NCBI GenBank assembly: GCA_029227035.1
Contig: JAQXZD010000022.1
Location: forward strand, 1-35,087
Reading direction: 5' to 3'
DNA: 35,087 bases
From: Lachnospiraceae bacterium
GTDB taxonomy: Bacteria; Bacillota; Clostridia; Lachnospirales; Lachnospiraceae
This document shows, in pieces, positions 8,511 to 21,784 of this stretch; the stretch's first letter is position 1; the number at the start of each line of letters is the position of its first letter. The notes under the pieces were generated by a model. The model did no database searches. It was not told the origin of the DNA and saw nothing but the letters and a program-made list of their open reading frames with translations. Made by a program: the position numbers and the translations under genes.

Positions 8511-8771
8511 ATGCCACAGATTATTCCAATTAAAGACTAAAAAAATACTTCAGAAATCTCGGAAATGTGTCATAAAGCGGAAGAACCAATTTATATAACC
8601 AAAAACGGATATGGAGATATGGTTATCATGAGTATGGAGAACTATGAAGAGATGATTCACAAACGCAGTGTTTATAGAGAACTTGAGATATCTGAACAGC
8701 AAATTACAGAGGGAAGAACAAAAGAAGCAAGAAGTTCTTTAAGTTCTATGAGGGAAAAATATGGCTTATAG
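8511..8771 (+). pseudogene. Phd/YefM-type antitoxin with in-frame stop at codon 10
   Basis: ATG 8511 follows a strong AAGGAGGT (8497-8504) and encodes MPQIIPIKD, then TAA at 8538-8540. The same frame then continues without interruption for 76 codons, through an antitoxin-like body (EEPIYITKNGYGDMVIMSM and EARSSLSSMREKYGL), to TAG at 8769. A single change such as TTA to TAA explains the stop. Restart at ATG 8565 would give a 68-aa protein without the N-terminal strand and helix needed for DNA binding, and no good ribosome site is seen there. The 3' end overlaps the toxin start by 11 nt. It is probably a recent pseudogene. Confidence 0.85.
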
Positions 8772-9072
8772 ACTTAACATTACTGATAGGGCGGAGGAAT
8801 TACTTGATCAACTAGTAAATTATATGTTGTTTAAGTTCAAGAATAAGGCAGCAGTGAAACATTTGTTGGATGGCATTGATTAGTTGTATGGCCGTTTGGA
8901 GGATAATTCATATCAATTTGCAGATTGTAGAGATTCTTTTTTAAAGAGTAAAGGGTATAAAGAAGCTGTAGTGAAGGATATGGACTATATTTTGATTTTT
9001 CGAATTGAGGGCAATGTCGTATATGTACTTGGAATCTTTCATCAGTTAGAAAATTACAAAGATAAATTATAA
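8761..9072 (+). pseudogene. RelE/ParE-superfamily toxin with in-frame stop at codon 41
   Basis: ATG 8761 opens a 103-codon frame starting MAYRLNITDRAEELLDQLV and ending YVLGIFHQLENYKDKL, matching the RelE/ParE toxin pattern. The only interruption is TAG at 8881-8883. All other codons keep the frame and family pattern, so the gene died recently by one substitution. A 62-aa distal piece could start at ATG 8887 but lacks the first helices. Losing the toxin would make the antitoxin nonsense mutation harmless, which suggests the order of loss. Confidence 0.85.
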
Positions 9073-9240: not shown

Positions 9241-9840
9241 ATGCAAGAAAACAAAACCTTAGAATACTATAATAAAAATGCAGAATCTTTTGTAGAAGGA
9301 ACAGTTGCAGTAGATTTTGAACAGACGCAACTAAGATTTATTTCTAAGCTGAAAGTAGGAGATTATATTCTTGACTTTGGCTGTGGTTCCGGAAGAGATA
9401 CAAAATATTTTCTGGAAAAGGGATTTAAAGTTGATGCTGTTGATGGCTCGGAGGAACTTTGCAAAAAAGCAAGCAAGATTACCGGAATAGAGGTAAGGCA
9501 GATGCTGTTTCAGGAATTGAACGAGGTCTCAAAATATAATGGCATTTGGGCATGCTCATCCATTCTTCATTTGCCGAAGTCTGAGTTAAAAGTGGTTTTA
9601 AGAAAAATGTTAATTGCACTGAAAGATCATGGAGTGATATACACATCTTTTAAGTACGGTGATTTTGAAGGAATGCGCAATGGAAGACATTTTACTGACT
9701 TTACATTGGAAGCATTACAGGAGTTTATCAAAGAGATTTCCGGAGCAGCAATTGAAGGAAGTTGGATTACCGGGGATGTACGTCCGGGGAGAGGTGAGGA
9801 GAAATGGCTGAATCTTCTATTAAGGAAGACCAATTTCTAA
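9241..9840 (+). CDS. class I SAM-dependent methyltransferase
   Basis: The product is 199 aa with a Rossmann-fold SAM-binding motif I (LDFGCGSGRDTKYF, about residues 45-58) and an acidic motif II (VDAVDGS). It lacks the (N/D)PPY motif of amino-methylating DNA methyltransferases, so DNA is not an obvious substrate; small molecules, tRNA or protein are possible. GAAGGA upstream supports the start. The last 37 nt overlap the next gene, a nuclease-helicase, implying coupled translation and a joint job. The target is unknown. Confidence 0.8.
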   Translation: MQENKTLEYYNKNAESFVEGTVAVDFEQTQLRFISKLKVGDYILDFGCGSGRDTKYFLEKGFKVDAVDGSEELCKKASKITGIEVRQMLFQELNEVSKYNGIWACSSILHLPKSELKVVLRKMLIALKDHGVIYTSFKYGDFEGMRNGRHFTDFTLEALQEFIKEISGAAIEGSWITGDVRPGRGEEKWLNLLLRKTNF

Positions 9841-12326
9841 GTCAACATACAGATTTTAACCTGAAAGAAGAAGTCACTTATCCCAATGGAGGAACAAGTA
9901 GGTTTTATGAGAATGGCACCGATATGGTTATCATAGATGATGATATCTGTGATATTGGGGAAAAAGAAGTACCTTTTTCTTATATGTTGATTACTGATAA
10001 ACAGAATCATTATATGAATCAGTATCGCAGAGTATTTCGGCTTTTAGGGTATTTGCGTTCTGATGTGGATAAGTATTTGGAGAGTCAGGATTTATCAATG
10101 GTATCGGATTATACGATCCGGGTAAATGACCGTGCAGATCTGGCTGAAGTCTCTCCGTTAGAGTTACACTTTGAGCAAAATTTTTCAAATGTTTATGGCA
10201 TGAACGCATTGAAATATTTGACTAGGGAATACGGAATTTGTGATGAGCAGGGACATAACTTTTTTCTGGATTATCTGGTCAATACATTCAAAGGGAAAGT
10301 GGCGGTGGAGGAGAATGGAGTTAAATATCATCATCCGCAGATCATCGGTAAAGAGAAGTATAAGAATCAGTTGACTAAGCAAAATACCTGTGCTTTATGG
10401 GGAATCAAGTTATTCCGATTTTCTACAGAGGACTGTGCTTTTGACAACAGAATTGAAGATGATATCAAAGAATATTTTGGAAGCGATACAGAGGGTTTTG
10501 TTGCGGATGGTCTTAAGGTAGACCGCAAGGTAGAGTTATATGATCATCAAACGCTCAGCCTTGAAGCAATTCAAAACAGACGAAATAATGGAATAAAAGC
10601 CTTTTTAGTTGTGTTGCCTACTGCCACCGGAAAATCTCGTATTGTAGAAGAAGATATAAAGATTTTTGCAGAGAATAAACCGGAGTTCAAAGGATTGATT
10701 CTGGTTCCGGGTATTAATACATTATCGGATTGGAAAGCCAGAGTGAAAGCATCTCTGCCGGAGCTTGAGGATAAAATCGAGGTATGCACTTATGCATATA
10801 TGGCGAAACATTATACGGAAAAACCAAGAAATTATTATAATTATCTGGTAGTGGATGAGGCTCATCATGCGGTTGCTCCTGTGCTAAAGCGGGTAATTCA
10901 ATATTTTGATACGGATTTTACAATAGGTCTTACGGCAACGGACCAAAGACCGGACAAGAAAAAGCTGGAGTCGGTATTTGGAAGTTATACAACTTCCTTA
11001 TCCCTGAAGGATGCAATGGAAAAGGGAATTGTTGCCCGGGCTAATGTTTACAGAATTGAAACGAATATTGATTTATCGCAGGTGCGGTTCAACGGAAAAG
11101 ACTATGTCAATGCAGATTTGGAGAAACGCATACGGGTTACTTCCCGAAATGAACTGATTATCGATGTGCTGTCTGAGTATTTTACAGAAGGTGAAGCAGG
11201 GGAACGTCAGGGGATTATTTTCTGCGTAAATGTAGTACACGCAAATGAAATGGCTCGATTATTAAATAAAGCAGGGATATCGGCACAAAGCTACACGGGT
11301 CAGACGAAAAATGCAACAGAGGTTATAGAAGACTTCAAAAATCATAAAATACGATTCCTATGTAGCTGCAATATGATTTCGGAAGGATGGGATTATCCGG
11401 AACTTGGAATTTTAGTAATGGCAAGACCAACCTTGTCCAAGGTGCTATATCTGCAACAGATTGGAAGAGGACTAAGAAAAACGGATACCAAAAAGAACGT
11501 GATTGTCATTGATATGGTGGATGAATATGGTGCCATGGCAAAAGCCTGTTCTATGCATTCTATTTTTGCCAATCCGTATTATGTGCCATTTGGAGATATT
11601 ACAAGAGATAATTATGTTCCGGGCGAGATGATTGTTATTGATGGTATCACGGAAAGAATCGAGCGTATTCAGGAAGTAGATATCAATACCTTTGAAGAAA
11701 AGTATGGGGATTATCTGAGCCAGGAGCAGGTGGCAAGAGAATATTTTGTCAGTACCGGAACGGTTACCAGTTGGATAAAAAAAGGTAAGATTGTTCCTTC
11801 GGTGAAGTATAAGTTTGGCAGTAAGTCAATGTATTTATTCAGTCCGGAAGATGTGGATAAATATCGCAAAGAACTGGGAATTAAGACACATGATGATAGT
11901 ACTATTAAGGAAGATTTCTTTAAGTTTTTGGAAGAAAGAGATTATTCATTATCGTATAAGATGCCATTTATGCTGGCTTTGATTGAGGAGATGAATACCA
12001 TTGGTGATGCAGATATTGATGCTGTCCTGACAAAATACATAGAGTTTTACCGGGACAGAATTCAAAGAGGATTGCCGGTGGACAGAAGCACCTGTCCTTA
12101 TAATGAAGAAACCTTAAAGGACAGAAATACAATACGCAGAAGTATGCTGGCGAATCCTTTTGAAAAGTTTGAACGAAAAAGATTTATGTATTATTCGAAG
12201 GATCTTAGTATCATTTCTTTCAATCATGCATTGTTCAGCCGAATGACATCGGAGGATTGGGACCGGGTCAAAAAGCAAATGAATGAAGATCTGGAAAATT
12301 ATTACAAAGAACTTGGGGGCAATTAG
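9804..12326 (+). CDS. nuclease-SF2 helicase-HTH fusion protein
   Basis: The product is 840 aa. Residues about 110-225 look like a Vsr/DUF559-type PD-(D/E)XK nuclease: FFLDYLV with Asp156, VAVEENGVKYHHP with Glu169/170, then QLTKQN and a closing FRFS strand. An SF2 helicase core follows: LPTATGKS (271-278, motif I), DEAH (351-354, motif II), TAT (377-379, motif III), SEGWDYPEL (motif V) and QIGRGLR (552-558, motif VI). Residues about 637-692 resemble a MerR/excisionase-type HTH (LSQEQVAREYFVSTGTVTSWIKKG). GGTGAGGAGAA precedes the ATG inside the methyltransferase gene. The build recalls restriction-type or anti-phage helicases, but I cannot match it to a named system. Confidence 0.82.
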   Translation: MAESSIKEDQFLSQHTDFNLKEEVTYPNGGTSRFYENGTDMVIIDDDICDIGEKEVPFSYMLITDKQNHYMNQYRRVFRLLGYLRSDVDKYLESQDLSMVSDYTIRVNDRADLAEVSPLELHFEQNFSNVYGMNALKYLTREYGICDEQGHNFFLDYLVNTFKGKVAVEENGVKYHHPQIIGKEKYKNQLTKQNTCALWGIKLFRFSTEDCAFDNRIEDDIKEYFGSDTEGFVADGLKVDRKVELYDHQTLSLEAIQNRRNNGIKAFLVVLPTATGKSRIVEEDIKIFAENKPEFKGLILVPGINTLSDWKARVKASLPELEDKIEVCTYAYMAKHYTEKPRNYYNYLVVDEAHHAVAPVLKRVIQYFDTDFTIGLTATDQRPDKKKLESVFGSYTTSLSLKDAMEKGIVARANVYRIETNIDLSQVRFNGKDYVNADLEKRIRVTSRNELIIDVLSEYFTEGEAGERQGIIFCVNVVHANEMARLLNKAGISAQSYTGQTKNATEVIEDFKNHKIRFLCSCNMISEGWDYPELGILVMARPTLSKVLYLQQIGRGLRKTDTKKNVIVIDMVDEYGAMAKACSMHSIFANPYYVPFGDITRDNYVPGEMIVIDGITERIERIQEVDINTFEEKYGDYLSQEQVAREYFVSTGTVTSWIKKGKIVPSVKYKFGSKSMYLFSPEDVDKYRKELGIKTHDDSTIKEDFFKFLEERDYSLSYKMPFMLALIEEMNTIGDADIDAVLTKYIEFYRDRIQRGLPVDRSTCPYNEETLKDRNTIRRSMLANPFEKFERKRFMYYSKDLSIISFNHALFSRMTSEDWDRVKKQMNEDLENYYKELGGN

Positions 12327-12327
12327 T

Positions 12328-12777
12328 ATGCAGATTTTTGTAGATGCGGATGCTTGTCCTGTTGTTGGTATAGTGAAAAATATAGCCGAGAAATATGATA
12401 TTTCCGTGACATTGCTTTGTGATACCAATCATGTACTTTGTTCTGACTACAGTGAAGTGATTGTTGTAGGAGCAGGAGCAGATGCTGTAGATTACAAGTT
12501 AATCAACATTTGTCATAAGGGTGATATTGTCGTTTCACAAGATTATGGAGTGGCAGCTATGGCACTTGGTAAAGGAGCTTATGCAATTCATCAGTCTGGA
12601 AGATGGTATACCAATGAGAATATTGACCAGATGCTTATGGAAAGACATTTAAGCAAGAAGGCAAGGCGAGGTTCTCATAAGAATCATATGAAAGGACCGA
12701 GAAAACGAACAGATGAGGATGACGAAAGATTTGCACAATCTTTTGAAAAGCTTGTGCTGATGGCAATGAGAAACTGA
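12328..12777 (+). CDS. YaiI/YqxD family protein (DUF188)
   Basis: The product is 149 aa, starting one nucleotide after the helicase stop codon; GGGGG upstream lies in the helicase end. It has the family signature VDADACPV near the N-terminus, a conserved SQDYGVAAMAL segment, and a basic C-terminal part (KKARRGSHKNH). DUF188 proteins are usually grouped with PIN/NYN-like nuclease folds and their function is poorly defined. Tight spacing suggests one transcript with the methyltransferase and helicase. Confidence 0.88.
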   Translation: MQIFVDADACPVVGIVKNIAEKYDISVTLLCDTNHVLCSDYSEVIVVGAGADAVDYKLINICHKGDIVVSQDYGVAAMALGKGAYAIHQSGRWYTNENIDQMLMERHLSKKARRGSHKNHMKGPRKRTDEDDERFAQSFEKLVLMAMRN

Positions 12778-16426: not shown

Positions 16427-17476
16427 ATGCCATTTAAAATAGTCCGCAATGACATAACAAAAGTAAAAGCGGATATTATTGTGAATACAGCAAACCCGAA
16501 TCCGGTATGTGCCAGTGGTACGGACCTTGCAATTTATGAGGCGGCCGGCAGGGAACAGCTTCTTGCAGAGCGGGCACAGATTGGAAAGATTGCAAGGGGA
16601 GAAATTGCAGTTACCGGAGCCTACAACCTGAATGCGAAATACATTATACATACTGTCGGCCCAGTCTGGGAAGATGGAAAGCATCATGAGTTTGATATAT
16701 TGGAGAGCTGTTACAGAAAATCGCTTCAAAAGGCATTGGAGCTTGGATGTGAAAGCATAGCTTTTCCTCTTATATCAACCGGAGTCTATGGTTTTCCAAA
16801 GGATAAGGCATTGCAGATAGCGGTATTTGTTTTCAGTGAGTTTCTTCTGGAAAATGACATGCAGATTATTCTTGTGGTGTTTGACAAGAAATCATTTCAG
16901 CTTTCCGGACAGATTGTTGGAGACATTGATTCATATATAGATGCCAACTATGTCAGGGACAGTCATAAAAAAGAATATCCTGCAAGGAGTAGAAGAAGTA
17001 CCAGAGGCAGGGAAATAGCAGAAGAAGTTTTCTGCGGAGAAATGCTTCAAAGGGATATAGCAGAGGAAAGTGAAGCTCTGGCGAAACCATGTATGCCTTT
17101 GGCAGATATGTCACTGGAAGAGCAGCTGGAAAATATGGGAGTATCTTTCCATGACAAATTGTTTGAACTAATAGATGCATCCCACTTGGAGAATAAGGAT
17201 GTATGGAAGCGGGCAAATCTTGACAGAAAGCATTTTTCCAAGATTCAGTGTGATGCCAATTACCATCCAAAAAAGAAAACGGTAATGGCACTTTGTATCG
17301 CATTGGAACTTGACCTGGAACAGTCCAAGGATCTTTTGGCAAGAGCAGACTGGGCATTCAGTCCAAGCAGTAAAGTAGATCTGATCGTACAGAAAGCGAT
17401 TATTGACAAGCAGTATGATATCATGCAGTTGAATATAACATTATTTAAATATACAAATGAGATATTGGGGGTATAA
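16427..17476 (+). CDS. macrodomain protein with C-terminal helical/HTH-like domain
   Basis: The product is 349 aa, with AAGGAGGTG before the ATG. Residues 1-165 form a macrodomain: VNTANPNPVCASGTDLAI is loop 1 in a variant without the usual GGGVD, and PLISTGVYGFP (114-124) is the phosphate-binding loop. Macrodomains bind or hydrolyse ADP-ribose. A charged linker (about 175-230) leads to a C-terminal domain (about 232-349) with FHDKLFELID and DRKHFSKIQ; it is an XRE-like helical domain often fused to macrodomains in Firmicutes. With the next gene, an ADP-ribosylglycohydrolase, it points to ADP-ribose turnover. Confidence 0.82.
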   Translation: MPFKIVRNDITKVKADIIVNTANPNPVCASGTDLAIYEAAGREQLLAERAQIGKIARGEIAVTGAYNLNAKYIIHTVGPVWEDGKHHEFDILESCYRKSLQKALELGCESIAFPLISTGVYGFPKDKALQIAVFVFSEFLLENDMQIILVVFDKKSFQLSGQIVGDIDSYIDANYVRDSHKKEYPARSRRSTRGREIAEEVFCGEMLQRDIAEESEALAKPCMPLADMSLEEQLENMGVSFHDKLFELIDASHLENKDVWKRANLDRKHFSKIQCDANYHPKKKTVMALCIALELDLEQSKDLLARADWAFSPSSKVDLIVQKAIIDKQYDIMQLNITLFKYTNEILGV

Positions 17477-17491
17477 CCATAAGAATGGGAA

Positions 17492-17529
17492 CGCCGGTAC
17501 TGATAAAAAAGTATCGGCGCTTTTCTTTT
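17492..17529 (+). terminator. terminator after the macrodomain-HTH gene
   Basis: CGCCGGTACT (17492-17501) pairs with AGTATCGGCG (17510-17519), with one G-T pair, followed by CTTTTCTTTT. It separates the def/macro unit from the ADP-ribosylglycohydrolase gene. Confidence 0.85.
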
Positions 17530-17571
17530 GATGAAAAGTGTCGCCCCGACAGCGACCATACGGTGTAGATT

Positions 17572-17598
17572 CCTTGTTATACTTCTTTTGTAACAAGG
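17572..17598 (+). promoter_or_regulatory. inverted repeat framing a -10-like box before the ARH gene
   Basis: CCTTGTTA (17572-17579) and TAACAAGG (17591-17598) form a perfect 8-bp inverted repeat with an 11-nt spacer. TATACT (17578-17583) sits inside it and could be a -10 box, though the -35 region is weak. It may be an operator or a leader hairpin. The AGGAGG ribosome site is at 17630-17635. Confidence 0.4.
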
Positions 17599-17640
17599 AG
17601 AGATGAACTGCCGGAGCTTATCCGGGGACAGGAGGCAATT

Positions 17641-18930
17641 ATGTATGGAGCAATTTTAGGTGACATTATAGGAAGCCCGTTTGAATTTGACAGAGGCGAA
17701 AAGACAAAAGATTTTGATTTATTTTCAGGAGACTGTGGATTTACAGATGATTCCGTTATGACGATAGCGGTAGCTGAGGCTTTACTTGCTGTGGGGCAGG
17801 ATGCAGGCGTACCGGAAATAAAAGAAGCTGTCATTGCAAACATGCAGGATTGGGGAAGAAGATATCCTTATGCTGGATATGGCGGCAGATTCAGTCACTG
17901 GCTGGCGGAAACCAATCCAAAGCCATACGGAAGTTATGGAAATGGTTCTGCCATGAGGGTTTCTGCAGCAGGCTGGCTTTACTCGACCATTGAAAGAACC
18001 AGGGAAGTGGCACAGGCTACAGCAGAGGTGACACATAACCACCCGGAAGGAATAAAGGGAGCGGTTGCCACAGCAAGTTGCATCTTTATGGCAAGAAACG
18101 GAGCCTCCAAGGAGGAAATCAAGCAATATGTGGAGCGTGAATTCCAGTATGACCTTGACAGAACACTGGCAGAAATCAGACCAGCCTATCATCATGTGGA
18201 AAGTTGTCAGCAGACGGTGCCGGAGGCAATCATAGCTTTTCTGGAGGCAGAGAGTTTTGAAGATGCGGTGCGGAATGCCGTATCCTTAGGTGGAGATACC
18301 GATACACTGGCGGCCATTACAGGCAGTATTGCCGAGGCTTTCTTTGGAATCCCGGCATTTTTAAAAGCGGAATGCCGTCGCAGAATTGATGATGAGATGC
18401 GCCGGGTTTTGGAAGCATTTGATGAAGCTTTGGGAAAAAGTACGGGAAATCCGGATGAAAGAATGGAGGGCAATGCGCTGATCGAAAAAGCGATAGACCG
18501 CATTTATGAAGAACCGGATAGTGATAACCTTATAGATTTTCTTACTGTGTTGTGTATTCGCATGAAGGCGGATGGATGTGGCTTGGTGCCATTTGTAACA
18601 GTGGGGGAAGGAGTGTTTCCTGACCTGGATGTGTATAGTCTGCAAGAAGGAGATACCATAACATTGGATCATGAAGTGGGAATTCGCATGGATACCGTAA
18701 CGGAAGGCGACGGAAAAGAGTGGTTCTATATTTTTACCAATGGTGAAGAAATGCATAAAAAACCGGTTCCGGATGTGGTTATGGAGATTCCGTTTGCCGA
18801 AATATTGGAGGCGGCAAAAAAGAGCAATAAGGTAAACGGTGTAGTCATGAATCCCTTTGGGAAGTATTTCAAGTTAGACAAGAAATTAATTGAATGTACA
18901 TTTGAAGTATTAAAGCACATGGAGGAGTAG
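17641..18930 (+). CDS. ADP-ribosylglycohydrolase fused to an SseB-like domain
   Basis: The product is 429 aa. Residues 1-265 are an ADP-ribosylglycohydrolase (ARH/DraG family): GAILGDIIGSPFEF at the start, magnesium-binding FTDDS (about 37-41) and SLGGDTDTLAA (about 219-229). These enzymes remove ADP-ribose from arginine or other acceptors. Residues about 285-429 resemble the SseB N-terminal domain, with FLTVLC, then VVMEIPFAEIL and GVVMNPFGKYF. SseB-like domains are of unclear role and may act in protein interaction. The ribosome site is GGAGG. It sits between two macrodomain genes. Confidence 0.85.
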   Translation: MYGAILGDIIGSPFEFDRGEKTKDFDLFSGDCGFTDDSVMTIAVAEALLAVGQDAGVPEIKEAVIANMQDWGRRYPYAGYGGRFSHWLAETNPKPYGSYGNGSAMRVSAAGWLYSTIERTREVAQATAEVTHNHPEGIKGAVATASCIFMARNGASKEEIKQYVEREFQYDLDRTLAEIRPAYHHVESCQQTVPEAIIAFLEAESFEDAVRNAVSLGGDTDTLAAITGSIAEAFFGIPAFLKAECRRRIDDEMRRVLEAFDEALGKSTGNPDERMEGNALIEKAIDRIYEEPDSDNLIDFLTVLCIRMKADGCGLVPFVTVGEGVFPDLDVYSLQEGDTITLDHEVGIRMDTVTEGDGKEWFYIFTNGEEMHKKPVPDVVMEIPFAEILEAAKKSNKVNGVVMNPFGKYFKLDKKLIECTFEVLKHMEE

Positions 18931-18933
18931 GGC

Positions 18934-19047
18934 ATGATGAACAGAACAATAAGAGTAACAGGAAAAGGTAAGATATCGGTAAAGCCGGATAATATTGATA
19001 TGACGGATACGGTAACGGTGGTATGGAGTCTGTCAGATTATATTTGA
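18934..19047 (+). pseudogene. N-terminal fragment of a SIMPL (DUF541) protein
   Basis: ATG 18934 (or 18937), just after the ARH stop and with GGAGGAG upstream, encodes NRTIRVTGKGKISVKPDNI. This is the typical first strand of SIMPL/DUF541 proteins, which are normally over 200 aa. After about 22 codons the similarity stops and a TGA closes the frame at codon 38. The remainder of the gene is missing, so this looks like a deletion scar. Confidence 0.6.
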
Positions 19048-19178
19048 TGGTTCTTAATATTTTGCACGGTCACTTGAAATATAAAAATCCAAGAGATATT
19101 ATAATGATATAGGTTTGTTGGAGGAAGGGTTATATTTCCATAGTAGTATTCGGGGATATTTAGATTGGAGTGTTGTTT

Positions 19179-19712
19179 ATGAATTTAATCAAAACAGTAA
19201 GAGGAGATATAACAAAAATTCAAGATGTACAAGCTATTGTAAATGCTGCAAATTCATCACTACTTGGCGGCGGTGGTGTGGACGGAGCCATTCATCGTGC
19301 AGCAGGACCGGAACTTTTGGCAGAGTGCCGGACTCTTCACGGATGTGAAACGGGACAGGCAAAGATTACAAAAGCATATAAATTGCCCTGTGACTATGTG
19401 ATACATACAGTAGGTCCAATTTGGAATGGCGGAAAAGCAAATGAAGAGGAGCTGCTTGCAAACTGCTATTATAATTCCATGCAGGTGGCTATGGATAATG
19501 GAATAAGAACAATTGCGTTTCCGTCCATTTCGACAGGTGTATATCGTTTTCCGGTTGAATTGGCTGCAAAGATTGCAGTACATACAGTAGAGAGATTTCT
19601 GGATGCAAATGAAGGGAAATTTGATTTGGTAGAATGGGTGCTTTTTGATGAAAGGACGGAAAAAGTATACGAAACAGAAGTCGATAGATTATGTAAAGGA
19701 ATGAATCATTAA
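19179..19712 (+). CDS. stand-alone macrodomain protein, copy A (ADP-ribose hydrolase type)
   Basis: 177 aa from ATG 19179, with GGAGTG upstream. It has the full catalytic pattern: [18 protein letters not shown] (residues about 22-39), [20 protein letters not shown], and [10 protein letters not shown]. This is the MacroD-type (YmdB/AF1521-like) fold that removes ADP-ribose from acidic side chains or hydrolyses O-acetyl-ADP-ribose. A second gene at 32797-33333 is about 95% identical by eye. A promoter-like TTGAAA...TATAAT lies at 19074-19105, but with a 20-nt spacer. Confidence 0.9.
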
Positions 19713-19784: not shown

Positions 19785-19813
19785 TTGTATTTCTTTCTGA
19801 CTGTGGGTATACT
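19785..19813 (+). promoter_or_regulatory. promoter of the rloAB operon
   Basis: TTGTAT (19785-19790), a 17-nt spacer and TATACT (19808-19813) precede AGGAGGTG (19823-19830). The leader would be only about 15 nt, so rloAB has its own promoter and a very short 5' end. Confidence 0.65.
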
Positions 19814-19835
19814 TAAAATAGTAGGAGGTGCTAAA

Positions 19836-21134
19836 ATGCTGATAGAATTTCGATTTAGGAATTATAGGTCTTTTAAAGATGAGGCTGTATTATCGATGGA
19901 GGCAACCGGTTTATCTGCATTTAAAGGATGTTTGATTCCTTGCGGAAGTATAAAATTATTGCCGGGTGCTGCAATATACGGGAAGAATGGTGGAGGAAAA
20001 AGTAATGTAATTCGAGCTTTTTGGTTGGCAGTGCAGTTTATCAGGAATGCACAGAGAACACAGCATGAAAAAGCGGCGGTTCCGGTAGTACCATTTATGC
20101 TTAATGATACATCGAGAAATGAACCAACAGAGTTTACGTTTGAATATACAGTTGATAATATAAAATATTGGTATACTTTTGAGGCAACAAGAGAGCGTAT
20201 TGTAAAGGAAGCATTGTATCATGCACCAAAAGGACAGAAGGCATTGGTATTCTCACGTGAAGGACAAAGCTTTAATTTTACAGAGGACAAATCCAGAAGA
20301 AAGCTGATTAGCGAAGCAGTAGCAGAGAATCAATTGTTTTTCTCTGTTGCCTGTACAATGAATGATATAAATTGTGTTAAGGCCATGAAATGGTTTAGAG
20401 AACAGATTTTCTTTTCCAGAGATTATGCAGACATTCCAAGGCAGTTATTAGATTATTCAAATGATACAAATATGTTGAAGGCTATTTCGGATTATGCAAA
20501 AGCAGCAGATTTTGGAATTGAAGATATGCAGTTTGAAATAGACAGTAAAGAAATTGATGAGGGACTTGAATTTCCAAGGGATATCCCAGAGGGGATAAAG
20601 GAAGCATTAACTCAGTTTATGCATGTGCTTTCAGAAACATCCAATAATTCAGAATCGAGATTGAAACTCGGTCAGGTAAAGGCAACATCTCTTCATCCGG
20701 GAATGGGCGATGATGGAACGAGTCATTTATATCCACTTGATTTGTCGGAAGAATCTGATGGTACTAGAAAGTTGATGTCGGTAGCACCGGCGATAGAGTC
20801 AACTTTGCAGAAAGGTGGAGTTTTATTAATTGATGAAATAGAGAGGGAACTTCATCCTATGTTAGTGGACTATATTGTTGCAAAATTTCAGAGCAAGGAC
20901 TCTAATCCAAAGGGTGCCCAGATTATTTTTACAACGCACAATACAGAACTGATGAATATGGAACTTCTTAGAAAGGATCAGATATATTTCGCAGATAAAG
21001 AACGAGAAACCGGCTTGTCAGAATTGTATAGTATCAGTGAGTTTTCAACGAAGACCACGGAGAATATCCGAAAAGGATACTTGTTAGGAAAGTATGGAGC
21101 GACACCTGATGTTGAAATTGAGGAGGTAGAATAA
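19836..21134 (+). CDS. rloA: RloA-like AAA ATPase (AAA_15/AAA_21, OLD/ABC-type) of a defence pair
   Basis: The product is 432 aa from ATG 19836, chosen for the perfect AGGAGGTG at 19823-19830. The start MLIEFRFRNYRSF is the usual first strand of SMC/ABC-like defence ATPases. Walker A is GKNGGGKS (49-56), an ABC-like signature is LSEESDGTRKL (303-313), Walker B is VLLIDEIE (329-336) and the H-loop is FTTHNTELM. It overlaps rloB by TAATG. Such pairs act in abortive infection: AbiL is of this build, and PARIS AriA is a related ATPase. It is likely to sense infection and hold the partner nuclease; this is inference. Confidence 0.85.
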   Translation: MLIEFRFRNYRSFKDEAVLSMEATGLSAFKGCLIPCGSIKLLPGAAIYGKNGGGKSNVIRAFWLAVQFIRNAQRTQHEKAAVPVVPFMLNDTSRNEPTEFTFEYTVDNIKYWYTFEATRERIVKEALYHAPKGQKALVFSREGQSFNFTEDKSRRKLISEAVAENQLFFSVACTMNDINCVKAMKWFREQIFFSRDYADIPRQLLDYSNDTNMLKAISDYAKAADFGIEDMQFEIDSKEIDEGLEFPRDIPEGIKEALTQFMHVLSETSNNSESRLKLGQVKATSLHPGMGDDGTSHLYPLDLSEESDGTRKLMSVAPAIESTLQKGGVLLIDEIERELHPMLVDYIVAKFQSKDSNPKGAQIIFTTHNTELMNMELLRKDQIYFADKERETGLSELYSISEFSTKTTENIRKGYLLGKYGATPDVEIEEVE

Positions 21135-21784
21135 TGGCTCGTCAATTGAAAAACACAAAACCACTCATTTATGTCTTTTGTGAAGGGGAAAGCGAACAAG
21201 TTTATACAGATTATTTGAAGAAAGTATTTGAAAATGTGGCGGTTATTCGAAGACCAAAAGAAACTGGCTTGTTTGAGTTGGCTGATCGTTTTTTTAAGAA
21301 TAATCAGAAATATAAGAACAGTGCAGAAGTGACGGATGAAATTTGGTTCTTTTTTGATGTGGAAATGGAAGATGTCAATAAGTGGAATAAGAGGCTTACC
21401 ATTATAAAACGTTTGCGAAAACTTAGAAAAAATCCTAATATACGTGTAAGATTGCTGATGACAACCGGTTGCATAGAATATTGGTTGATGTTACATTATA
21501 AGATGTATGTACCGCCTTTACAAACTGTTGCAGACAAAGAAAAAGTAATTTCAGAGCTTAAGATCAAGGAGCCTACTTATGCAAAGGGAGATAGGAACTC
21601 TACATTTAAGATTGCGGAGAATTATAAGACAGCCAATGTAAATGCTGAGAAAACAGTAAGGAATCTTTTACAGGATGGATTGCCGGGATTGGAAGACACA
21701 GATATTCGAAATCAGTGGCTATGCGCTAATTGCAAAACCTTCTCAAATGTATATGAAGCAATTAATTATTTAGAGAATTTATAA
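21134..21784 (+). CDS. rloB: RloB-like protein (putative TOPRIM-like effector)
   Basis: The product is 216 aa, starting in the rloA stop (TAATG). It begins with a strand and acidic turn YVFCEGESEQVY, has WFFFDVEMED (an acidic DxxxED-type site) near residues 71-80, and TTGCIEYWLMLHY near 113-125. The last matches the RloB hallmark of the type S-x-P-x-F-E-x-W-L-L-L-H, with some changes. RloB is thought to be TOPRIM-like, as is the AriB effector of PARIS. Together with RloA it forms a compact two-gene system. Confidence 0.82.
   Translation: MARQLKNTKPLIYVFCEGESEQVYTDYLKKVFENVAVIRRPKETGLFELADRFFKNNQKYKNSAEVTDEIWFFFDVEMEDVNKWNKRLTIIKRLRKLRKNPNIRVRLLMTTGCIEYWLMLHYKMYVPPLQTVADKEKVISELKIKEPTYAKGDRNSTFKIAENYKTANVNAEKTVRNLLQDGLPGLEDTDIRNQWLCANCKTFSNVYEAINYLENL

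Follow-up and report, generated by a model that had tools for sequence, protein, structure and literature searches.

A small methyltransferase gene coupled to exchangeable nucleases in Lachnospiraceae: a candidate modular anti-phage or anti-plasmid unit

The DNA described here is contig JAQXZD010000022.1 of a Lachnospiraceae bacterium (assembly GCA_029227035.1), and the window refers to this whole stretch of 35,087 nucleotides; other genomes and loci are designated by G and L numbers. The element of interest is a pair of genes on the forward strand, identified as open reading frames (ORFs) with Pfam matches, that code for a 199-aa class I S-adenosylmethionine (SAM)-dependent methyltransferase (9241..9840) and an 840-aa nuclease-helicase protein with a helix-turn-helix (HTH) domain (9804..12326), the type A partner. 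Both are open, both begin with ATG, and they overlap by 37 nt, as reported in a preliminary description made from the sequence alone. The overlapping methyltransferase/nuclease layout is seen again in many genera, and is thus more than a chance arrangement.

The 840-aa protein codes from its N-terminus for a PD-(D/E)XK-like nuclease domain (residues 123-226; 10170..10481), a superfamily 2 (SF2) helicase core (residues 243-572; 10530..11519), an HTH_17 or excisionase-like DNA-binding domain (residues 637-689; 11712..11870), and a C-terminal 'YKMP' domain (residues 690-840; 11871..12323), all on the forward strand. The helicase motifs and HTH proposed previously are matched by Pfam–ResIII (2e-18, residues 243-379), Helicase_C (3e-12, 456-558) and HTH_17 (3e-6, 637-689)–with DEAHH at residue 351 and QQIGRGLR at 551. 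The proposed Vsr/DUF559-like nuclease is borne out through intermediates: Asp156 and Glu169/Glu170 are present, but the N-terminal 235 aa alone match no Pfam family directly, and no PDB sequence. The nuclease domain occurs in 10 of 391 genomes of the class, the window's own included, and the class search gave one 38% relative (G502) and eight genomes with nine places at E values of about 1e-8 to 1e-11. Eight of the ten places outside the window's genome were retrieved, and five of these proteins were scanned with Pfam for REase_MTES_1575 and DUF559. The five homologues (L282-L284, L286 and L287), recruited by the window nuclease domain at 3e-9 to 1e-11, all match REase_MTES_1575 over the aligned region (3e-7 to 4e-4, below the Pfam cut-off), and three also match DUF559 (0.003, 0.033 and 0.075); the nearer G502 protein matches neither. 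Residues D156 and E169 of the window protein line up with the conserved D and E of the homologues. A single-sequence AlphaFold2 model of the N-terminus has a predicted local distance difference test score of 39, too low to serve as fold evidence (a second single-sequence model scored 40), and the assignment as a PD-(D/E)XK-like nuclease is supported by transitive homology rather than by structure.

The methyltransferase matches Pfam Methyltransf_25 (7e-12), is 49-66% identical to the 13 other rows of its alignment (A1), and has as its nearest solved structure 3e23 (RPA2492, uncharacterised). In type I, II and III restriction-modification systems, DNA amino- and C5-methyltransferases carry a catalytic [NDS]PP[YFW] or PC motif; neither [NDS]PP[YFW] nor PC[QN] is present within the 199 aa, and the earlier view that this is not a standard restriction-modification pair holds.

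The same methyltransferase, in versions mostly 49-68% identical, precedes three unrelated nucleases: type A, the PD-(D/E)XK-helicase; type B, a phospholipase D-like (PLD) nuclease-helicase (Pfam PLDc_2, ResIII and Helicase_C); and type C, an HNH protein of about 390 aa (HNH_4). Type A and B proteins share only 25-29% identity over their aligned part, and the window protein matches neither PLDc nor DUF3427 in Pfam, with an N-terminus unrelated to that of type B (hhalign probability [P] 0.8%). A helicase search of the window's family (299 genomes) gave matches at E 1e-30 or better in 36 of them, and in six copies the nuclease domain is that of type A (the window, G177, G118, G101, G267 and G102); a seventh, from G065, consists of a C-terminal fragment at the end of its contig and was left unclassed. 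The G101 copy is without the N-terminal ~100 residues, and the G102 gene is interrupted by an insertion (L038:8620-10259) with ORFs of 185 and 361 aa on the other strand. ORFs of these sizes also adjoin the G102 methyltransferase about 26 kb away (L091), which suggests a rearrangement between copies.

The methyltransferase itself is present at E 1e-20 or better in 88 of the 299 genomes; a search of the phylum located it in 16 of 398. Twelve loci outside the family were retrieved, seven with a type B gene (one broken), one with type C, and four with neither; the nuclease gene comes first in most of the eight paired loci (L289, L291-L294, L296, L297), as it does in L281. For 63 of 120 methyltransferase hidden Markov model (HMM) matches, a nuclease of one of the three types lies no more than 2 kb away in the same orientation, a count that includes fragments and duplicates and is biased in that most loci were picked for the methyltransferase. 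Most of the nuclease-type counts come from such loci, and those that started from the nuclease are given separately; for type B, these place a methyltransferase within the retrieved flank in 8 of 11.

The pairing is variable at the level of close relatives. A quick tree of 95 methyltransferases (fragments L118 and L148 were dropped, and many branches are weak) needs at least ten changes among types A, B and C as a parsimony minimum, and its starred branches alone force two changes for B, four for C downstream, and one each for A and C upstream. In the window's genus the methyltransferase is found in 9 of 60 genomes, its own included, and of the eight congeners two have a type A nuclease, four type B and two type C, the L329 genes matching only in part. 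In two of those with type B, a block of 3,063 bp is 98.1% identical (L322:6819-9880 and L323:6431-9493). Its limits fall no more than 13 nt from the two ends of the pair, and the flanks are unlike, with no match directly next to the block. The pair thus moves as a unit, and a recent transfer of the pair alone is indicated. The preliminary description had proposed counting how often the two genes co-occur; the methyltransferase is indeed frequently linked to nucleases, but by these comparisons it is the constant part and the nuclease the exchanged part.

A further feature is the position at which the nuclease begins. The start codon in the window (9804..9806, forward strand) lies at the junction of the methyltransferase K and W codons (AAA|TGG), preceded by a purine-rich, Shine-Dalgarno-like stretch inside the methyltransferase codons (9790..9801, forward strand) that includes AGAGG (9-nt spacer) and AGGAG (2-nt spacer). 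The methyltransferase tail reads EKWLN, such that AAA|TGG or AAG|TGG, after a run of purine-rich codons, holds an ATG or GTG. On this junction an ORF of 350 aa or longer begins in 5 of 6 type A loci, 16 of 19 type B loci and 13 of 17 with type C downstream (34/42 overall), compared with only 2 of 67 methyltransferases that have no such nuclease in the 1 kb downstream; the count omits matches shorter than 450 nt and 11 methyltransferases lacking a W[LIV]N motif (1 paired, 10 unpaired), and includes the near-duplicates L088/L095 and L033/L035. The exceptions are L325, which starts 3 nt past the methyltransferase stop, L098, which is broken, and L102 and L109, which do not use the junction; it is also unused in the proteobacterial plasmid loci L080, L082, L084 and L085. 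The arrangement indicates that the nuclease is translationally coupled to the methyltransferase, with one start junction serving three nuclease types. Two of the plasmid loci have further departures: in a Polaromonas plasmid the methyltransferase, PLD nuclease and first part of the helicase form one ORF (L085:8971-10755), and in a Pseudoalteromonas plasmid a PLD-helicase with a C-terminal peptidase S24-like domain lies right after the methyltransferase (L084:9598-12546).

The partners are not wholly without common parts. With enlarged alignments, hhalign joins the C-termini of types A and B (P 97.5%, E 6e-12, 136 columns), matches the type A C-terminus weakly to the HNH N-terminus (P 86% over 44 columns), and finds no match between the type B C-terminus and the HNH N-terminus; reversed controls have P of 0.7% or less. 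An earlier, smaller alignment set gave P of 79-85% for A against B and 7-12% for A against C, and hmmsearch joins the A and B domains in both directions and does not find C. The YKMP domain is thus common to the window protein and the PLD-helicases, and only tentatively homologous to the HNH N-terminus. HTH_17, by comparison, is unmatched in the four PLD-helicases, four HNH proteins and the type A protein of L037 that were scanned, so the HTH is not essential to the unit, and the earlier proposal that it chooses the target is not sustained.

The short overlaps and common start junction suggest a fixed stoichiometry or the formation of a complex, and would fit a sensor or antitoxin-like arrangement in which the methyltransferase binds or methylates the nuclease, or senses SAM or infection, and holds an exchangeable effector inactive until a phage perturbs it. 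Such a role would also fit L098 and L116, where an open methyltransferase adjoins a broken nuclease, and G102, which has a broken nuclease and an open methyltransferase elsewhere. We nonetheless consider it distinctly unlikely, as one methyltransferase would have to bind three unrelated nuclease folds, for which only the partly shared domain could serve, and HNH copies exist in genomes with no detected methyltransferase.

These HNH copies are informative beyond that point. A separate search finds the HNH protein in 60 of the 299 family genomes. Of the hits, 59 are near-full, with at least 250 residues aligned, and a methyltransferase lies within 1.5 kb of 27 of these. The HNH protein and methyltransferase occur together in 41 genomes, where 17.7 would be expected (Fisher 1.7e-12, without correction for kinship, some of the genomes being incomplete). 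Among the 32 near-full copies without an adjacent methyltransferase, 16 lie in genomes with no methyltransferase match at 1e-20; one (G284) has methyltransferase remnants beside the HNH gene, leaving 15 free of such traces. Nine of the 16 are 58-80% identical to HNH proteins that are paired with a methyltransferase.

An unorthodox restriction-modification system can be considered in this light, in which the methyltransferase puts an unusual mark on host DNA (other than base N6, N4 or C5 methylation), the three nucleases cut unmarked DNA, and the shared C-terminal domain reads the mark. The order of the genes, with the modification gene first and constant, the nucleases exchanged and translation coupled, is as in phosphorothioate systems, whose modification genes are reported to have varied nucleases as neighbours (PMC10853773), methyltransferases without a nuclease are common, and all six type A and eleven type B copies in the family sample are in genomes with some methyltransferase match, albeit of only 39% for G101. 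We regard it as unlikely, however, given the missing DNA-methylase motif and a length of 199 aa that leaves little room for a target-recognition domain; in addition, seven relatives of the window nuclease have no methyltransferase beside them (neighbourhoods only were examined), and the methyltransferase family is also found in unrelated neighbourhoods. For type C, the 16 near-full HNH copies in genomes lacking a methyltransferase match argue against protection of host DNA by the methyltransferase. They also weaken the earlier suggestion that the methyltransferase marks the target, which is one of several options, and together with the missing motif they led us to reject a standard type I, II or III restriction-modification pair.

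When the methyltransferase is not alongside, the same nuclease families are often next to genes for other putative nucleotide enzymes. Twenty HNH loci without an adjacent methyltransferase were retrieved (19 of the 32 near-full copies and the partial G189, L379), and L374, with its methyltransferase remnants, was set aside, leaving 19. In ten of these, a gene of about 105 aa from a single family (YNKLVRDKIPEII) lies within 54 nt of the HNH gene on the same strand, and in six, additionally or instead, there is a MazG-like gene (PF12643, 1.6e-18 in L360). In hhalign the ~105-aa family aligns with the PRA-PH portion of a protein that also has a macro domain (P 99.9), and the fusion member itself matches Pfam PRA-PH at 9.5e-6; this fusion (L287:4590-5468), a macro domain joined to a PRA-PH-like domain, is 2 nt upstream of a PD-(D/E)XK-helicase. 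Outside the window's family, seven of eight PD-(D/E)XK-helicases have a PRA-PH-like gene within 500 nt on the same strand and the eighth has a HIT-domain gene upstream; L281 has both a PRA-PH-like gene and a methyltransferase. No other locus scanned contains a PRA-PH-like gene.

A similar division is seen in the PLD-helicases, in a set of mixed origin that was de-duplicated by hand. The short forms have a methyltransferase in 21 of 24 and a NUDIX-box gene in 0 of 24, whereas the longer forms (993-1128 aa) have a NUDIX-box gene in at least 9 of 14 and a methyltransferase in 1 of 14, the NUDIX count being a lower bound, as some retrieved flanks are short, which may account for the lack of a NUDIX gene beside L017, L020, L021 and L023. 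We take these genes to be NUDIX from their motif; DUF3427 in the longer proteins is Pfam-confirmed in one. In L041 (1825-5438) a PLD-helicase-DUF3427 gene followed by a NUDIX gene (PADLOC PDC-S07) lies directly upstream of a type B pair, and PLD-helicase and NUDIX pairs of this kind are present in other loci. The constancy of the methyltransferase, the exchange of the nuclease, and the pairing of the same nuclease families elsewhere with nucleotide pyrophosphohydrolase-like proteins extend what was in the preliminary description.

The interpretation we favor, with a probability of about 40%, is that the pair is a modular nuclease unit, most likely directed against phages or plasmids, in which a nucleotide-acting methyltransferase keeps the coupled nuclease off the host. 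The genes are coupled, three interchangeable nucleases occupy one junction, and the pair has been transferred as a block between congeners; types A and B have a C-terminal domain in common, and the same nuclease families pair elsewhere with PRA-PH- or MazG-like genes and, for the longer PLD-helicases, with NUDIX genes. On this foundation the nuclease-helicase would cut foreign DNA, and the methyltransferase would act on a nucleotide or nucleotide-like small molecule. It may keep a non-canonical (deoxy)nucleotide out of host DNA, as a form of pool house-cleaning, or it may make or remove a nucleotide ligand that controls the nuclease. MazG- and MutT-type enzymes are known to clear oxidised or methylated deoxynucleoside triphosphates (PMC3855555, PMC7152754), and in a recent survey MazG figures as a predicted defence domain that awaits validation (PMC13092281). 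If the nuclease is directed at unusual bases, a partner that cleans the pool would protect host DNA from it. A role in defence would be consistent with the AbiL abortive-infection pair within the window and the patchy presence of the methyltransferase in the genus.

Several observations weigh against this interpretation. The two-gene system proposed previously is a real unit, with frequent methyltransferase-nuclease linkage, but only three of the six type A copies in the family sample are adjacent to a methyltransferase; the intact G267 copy (L037) is not, the genome having one of 45% identity elsewhere. Of ten genes that neighbour three type A loci, only two match PADLOC models at 1e-5, and eight of the 19 HNH loci have neither a PRA-PH-like nor a MazG-like gene. 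When six small members of the ~105-aa family were scanned separately, one matched PRA-PH (0.0016) and the others nothing relevant, such that assignment of the family as a PRA-PH-like nucleotide pyrophosphohydrolase is weak. Finally, 56 of the 120 methyltransferase matches have no type A, B or C nuclease nearby, and these include a clade of 26 rows on the methyltransferase tree. Several members of this clade adjoin genes for an acyl-ACP thioesterase, a CvfB-like protein and DNA polymerase III alpha (L120, L122, L125, L127, L149, L152 and others, by Pfam for L149 and by clustering for the rest). The methyltransferase family thus has other roles too.

These non-nuclease contexts raise the question of whether there is any joint defence function, the nuclease-helicase being a DNA-repair or type IV-like enzyme and the methyltransferase a metabolic hitchhiker that happens to lie in the same operon. 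One related methyltransferase (L106:5561-8341) follows a HIRAN-domain gene and directly precedes two others, one isochorismatase/nicotinamidase-like and one presumably nicotinate phosphoribosyltransferase-like, the latter identified from its first residues only. Such neighbours, resembling nicotinamide adenine dinucleotide salvage genes, would suit a metabolic origin, as would the 26-row clade and a family member fused to a membrane protein (L298). We consider it very unlikely nonetheless: the linkage is phylum-wide and occurs in both gene orders, one start junction is reused by three nuclease types and the pair is transferred as a block, and a single methyltransferase-PLD-helicase fusion (L085) is known among these loci.

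The unit resembles several described systems in part. SauUSI is a type IV enzyme with a PLD nuclease, SF2 helicase and DUF3427, the last proposed to recognise modified substrate (PMC3874153). In L041, residues 26-575 of the type B protein match a type IV model of PADLOC at 2e-105, and the window protein, with its SF2 helicase core, matches the same models at 8e-31; we read these models, from their lengths, as standing for SauUSI-like enzymes. Unlike SauUSI, the type B proteins scanned lack DUF3427 (which in L041 is present in a separate 1004-aa protein), have a different C-terminal domain and are alongside a methyltransferase, and the window nuclease is PD-(D/E)XK-like, not PLD. The window protein also resembles Vsr, DUF559 and REase_MTES_1575 nucleases fused to SF2 helicases, as reflected in the matches of its homologues, but has EENG where most REase_MTES_1575-type relatives have EIDG or EVDG, and is coupled to a methyltransferase; beyond the family, most of those relatives are accompanied by a PRA-PH-like gene instead.

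DNA phosphorothioate (Dnd) systems are similar in combining one constant module with several alternative nucleases, the modification genes reportedly having varied nucleases as neighbours (PMC10853773); they differ from the unit described here, with its single small methyltransferase without DNA-methylase motifs and its nuclease swap at one overlapping start codon. PADLOC also matches the methyltransferase to mad2 (6e-13), the HTH to mad1 (5e-6), and an AAA gene at 19785 to mad3 (1.8e-13), although AbiLi matches the last far better. The methylation-associated defence system (MADS) is a multi-gene mad set in one operon; with matches for two domains only and no such set around the pair, membership was rejected, and the mad1 and mad2 matches look like generic domain similarity. 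A literature search found no published description of the methyltransferase/nuclease pairing, with most subscription journals beyond its reach.

The genes flanking the pair include, by Pfam, ABC permeases, small toxin-antitoxin-like ORFs, YaiI, MATE and HD-domain genes. Directly upstream of the methyltransferase are a Phd/YefM-type antitoxin-like ORF and a short ParE/RelE-like ORF (8565-9072), with the ABC permease genes also upstream. Downstream, the match of a YaiI/YqxD ORF (12283-12777) to its NCBIfam model begins at residue 16, so the gene probably starts just after the helicase and is not counted in the unit; it is itself patchy, in 9 of 40 genomes of the genus (its own included), which makes an empty-site analysis through YaiI uninformative. 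The AbiL pair (19785-21784; AbiLi 1.5e-91, AbiLii 2e-16) lies 7.5 kb downstream, and between it and the methyltransferase/nuclease pair a peptide deformylase gene is followed by two macro-domain genes and one for an ADP-ribosylglycohydrolase/SseB protein in a row (16427-19712).

We also considered whether the system is phage-borne, and rejected this. Peptide-pattern scans of IMG/VR gave no relative of the window helicase and none of the methyltransferase alignment, none of the 80 helicase-core matches listed for the type A alignment matches the nuclease-domain HMM, and a single true relative, L249, came from the type B alignment; a scan of genome contigs gave one weak helicase-motif match that was not used. 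Two faecal scaffolds labelled 'Bacteriophage sp.', L033 (MT836124) and L088 (MT836554), contain a type A and a type C pair, respectively. They are 91-99% identical to and collinear with one bacterial genome (G118: L035, L095), L033 having about 3 kb of additional sequence ahead of the pair, and so were not counted as phage evidence; they are probably host DNA labelled as phage.

A broader proposal, which we put forward as rather unlikely, is that these are defence nucleases that tell self from non-self through the nucleotide pool, with an exchangeable nuclease slot (PD-(D/E)XK-helicase, PLD-helicase or HNH) and an exchangeable nucleotide-enzyme slot (methyltransferase, PRA-PH/MazG-like pyrophosphohydrolase or NUDIX). 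The host would avoid the base or ligand that triggers its own nuclease, and recombination would exchange one nuclease for another at the methyltransferase gene's conserved 3' end, where the KWLN codons would supply the ribosome site and start codon. If so, many unexplained helicase and HNH genes beside small methyltransferases or pyrophosphohydrolases would form one modular class, in which the rule for self and non-self would lie in nucleotide chemistry and not in DNA methylation, and the fixed plug-in junction would be a simple model for the swapping of nuclease effectors in bacteria.

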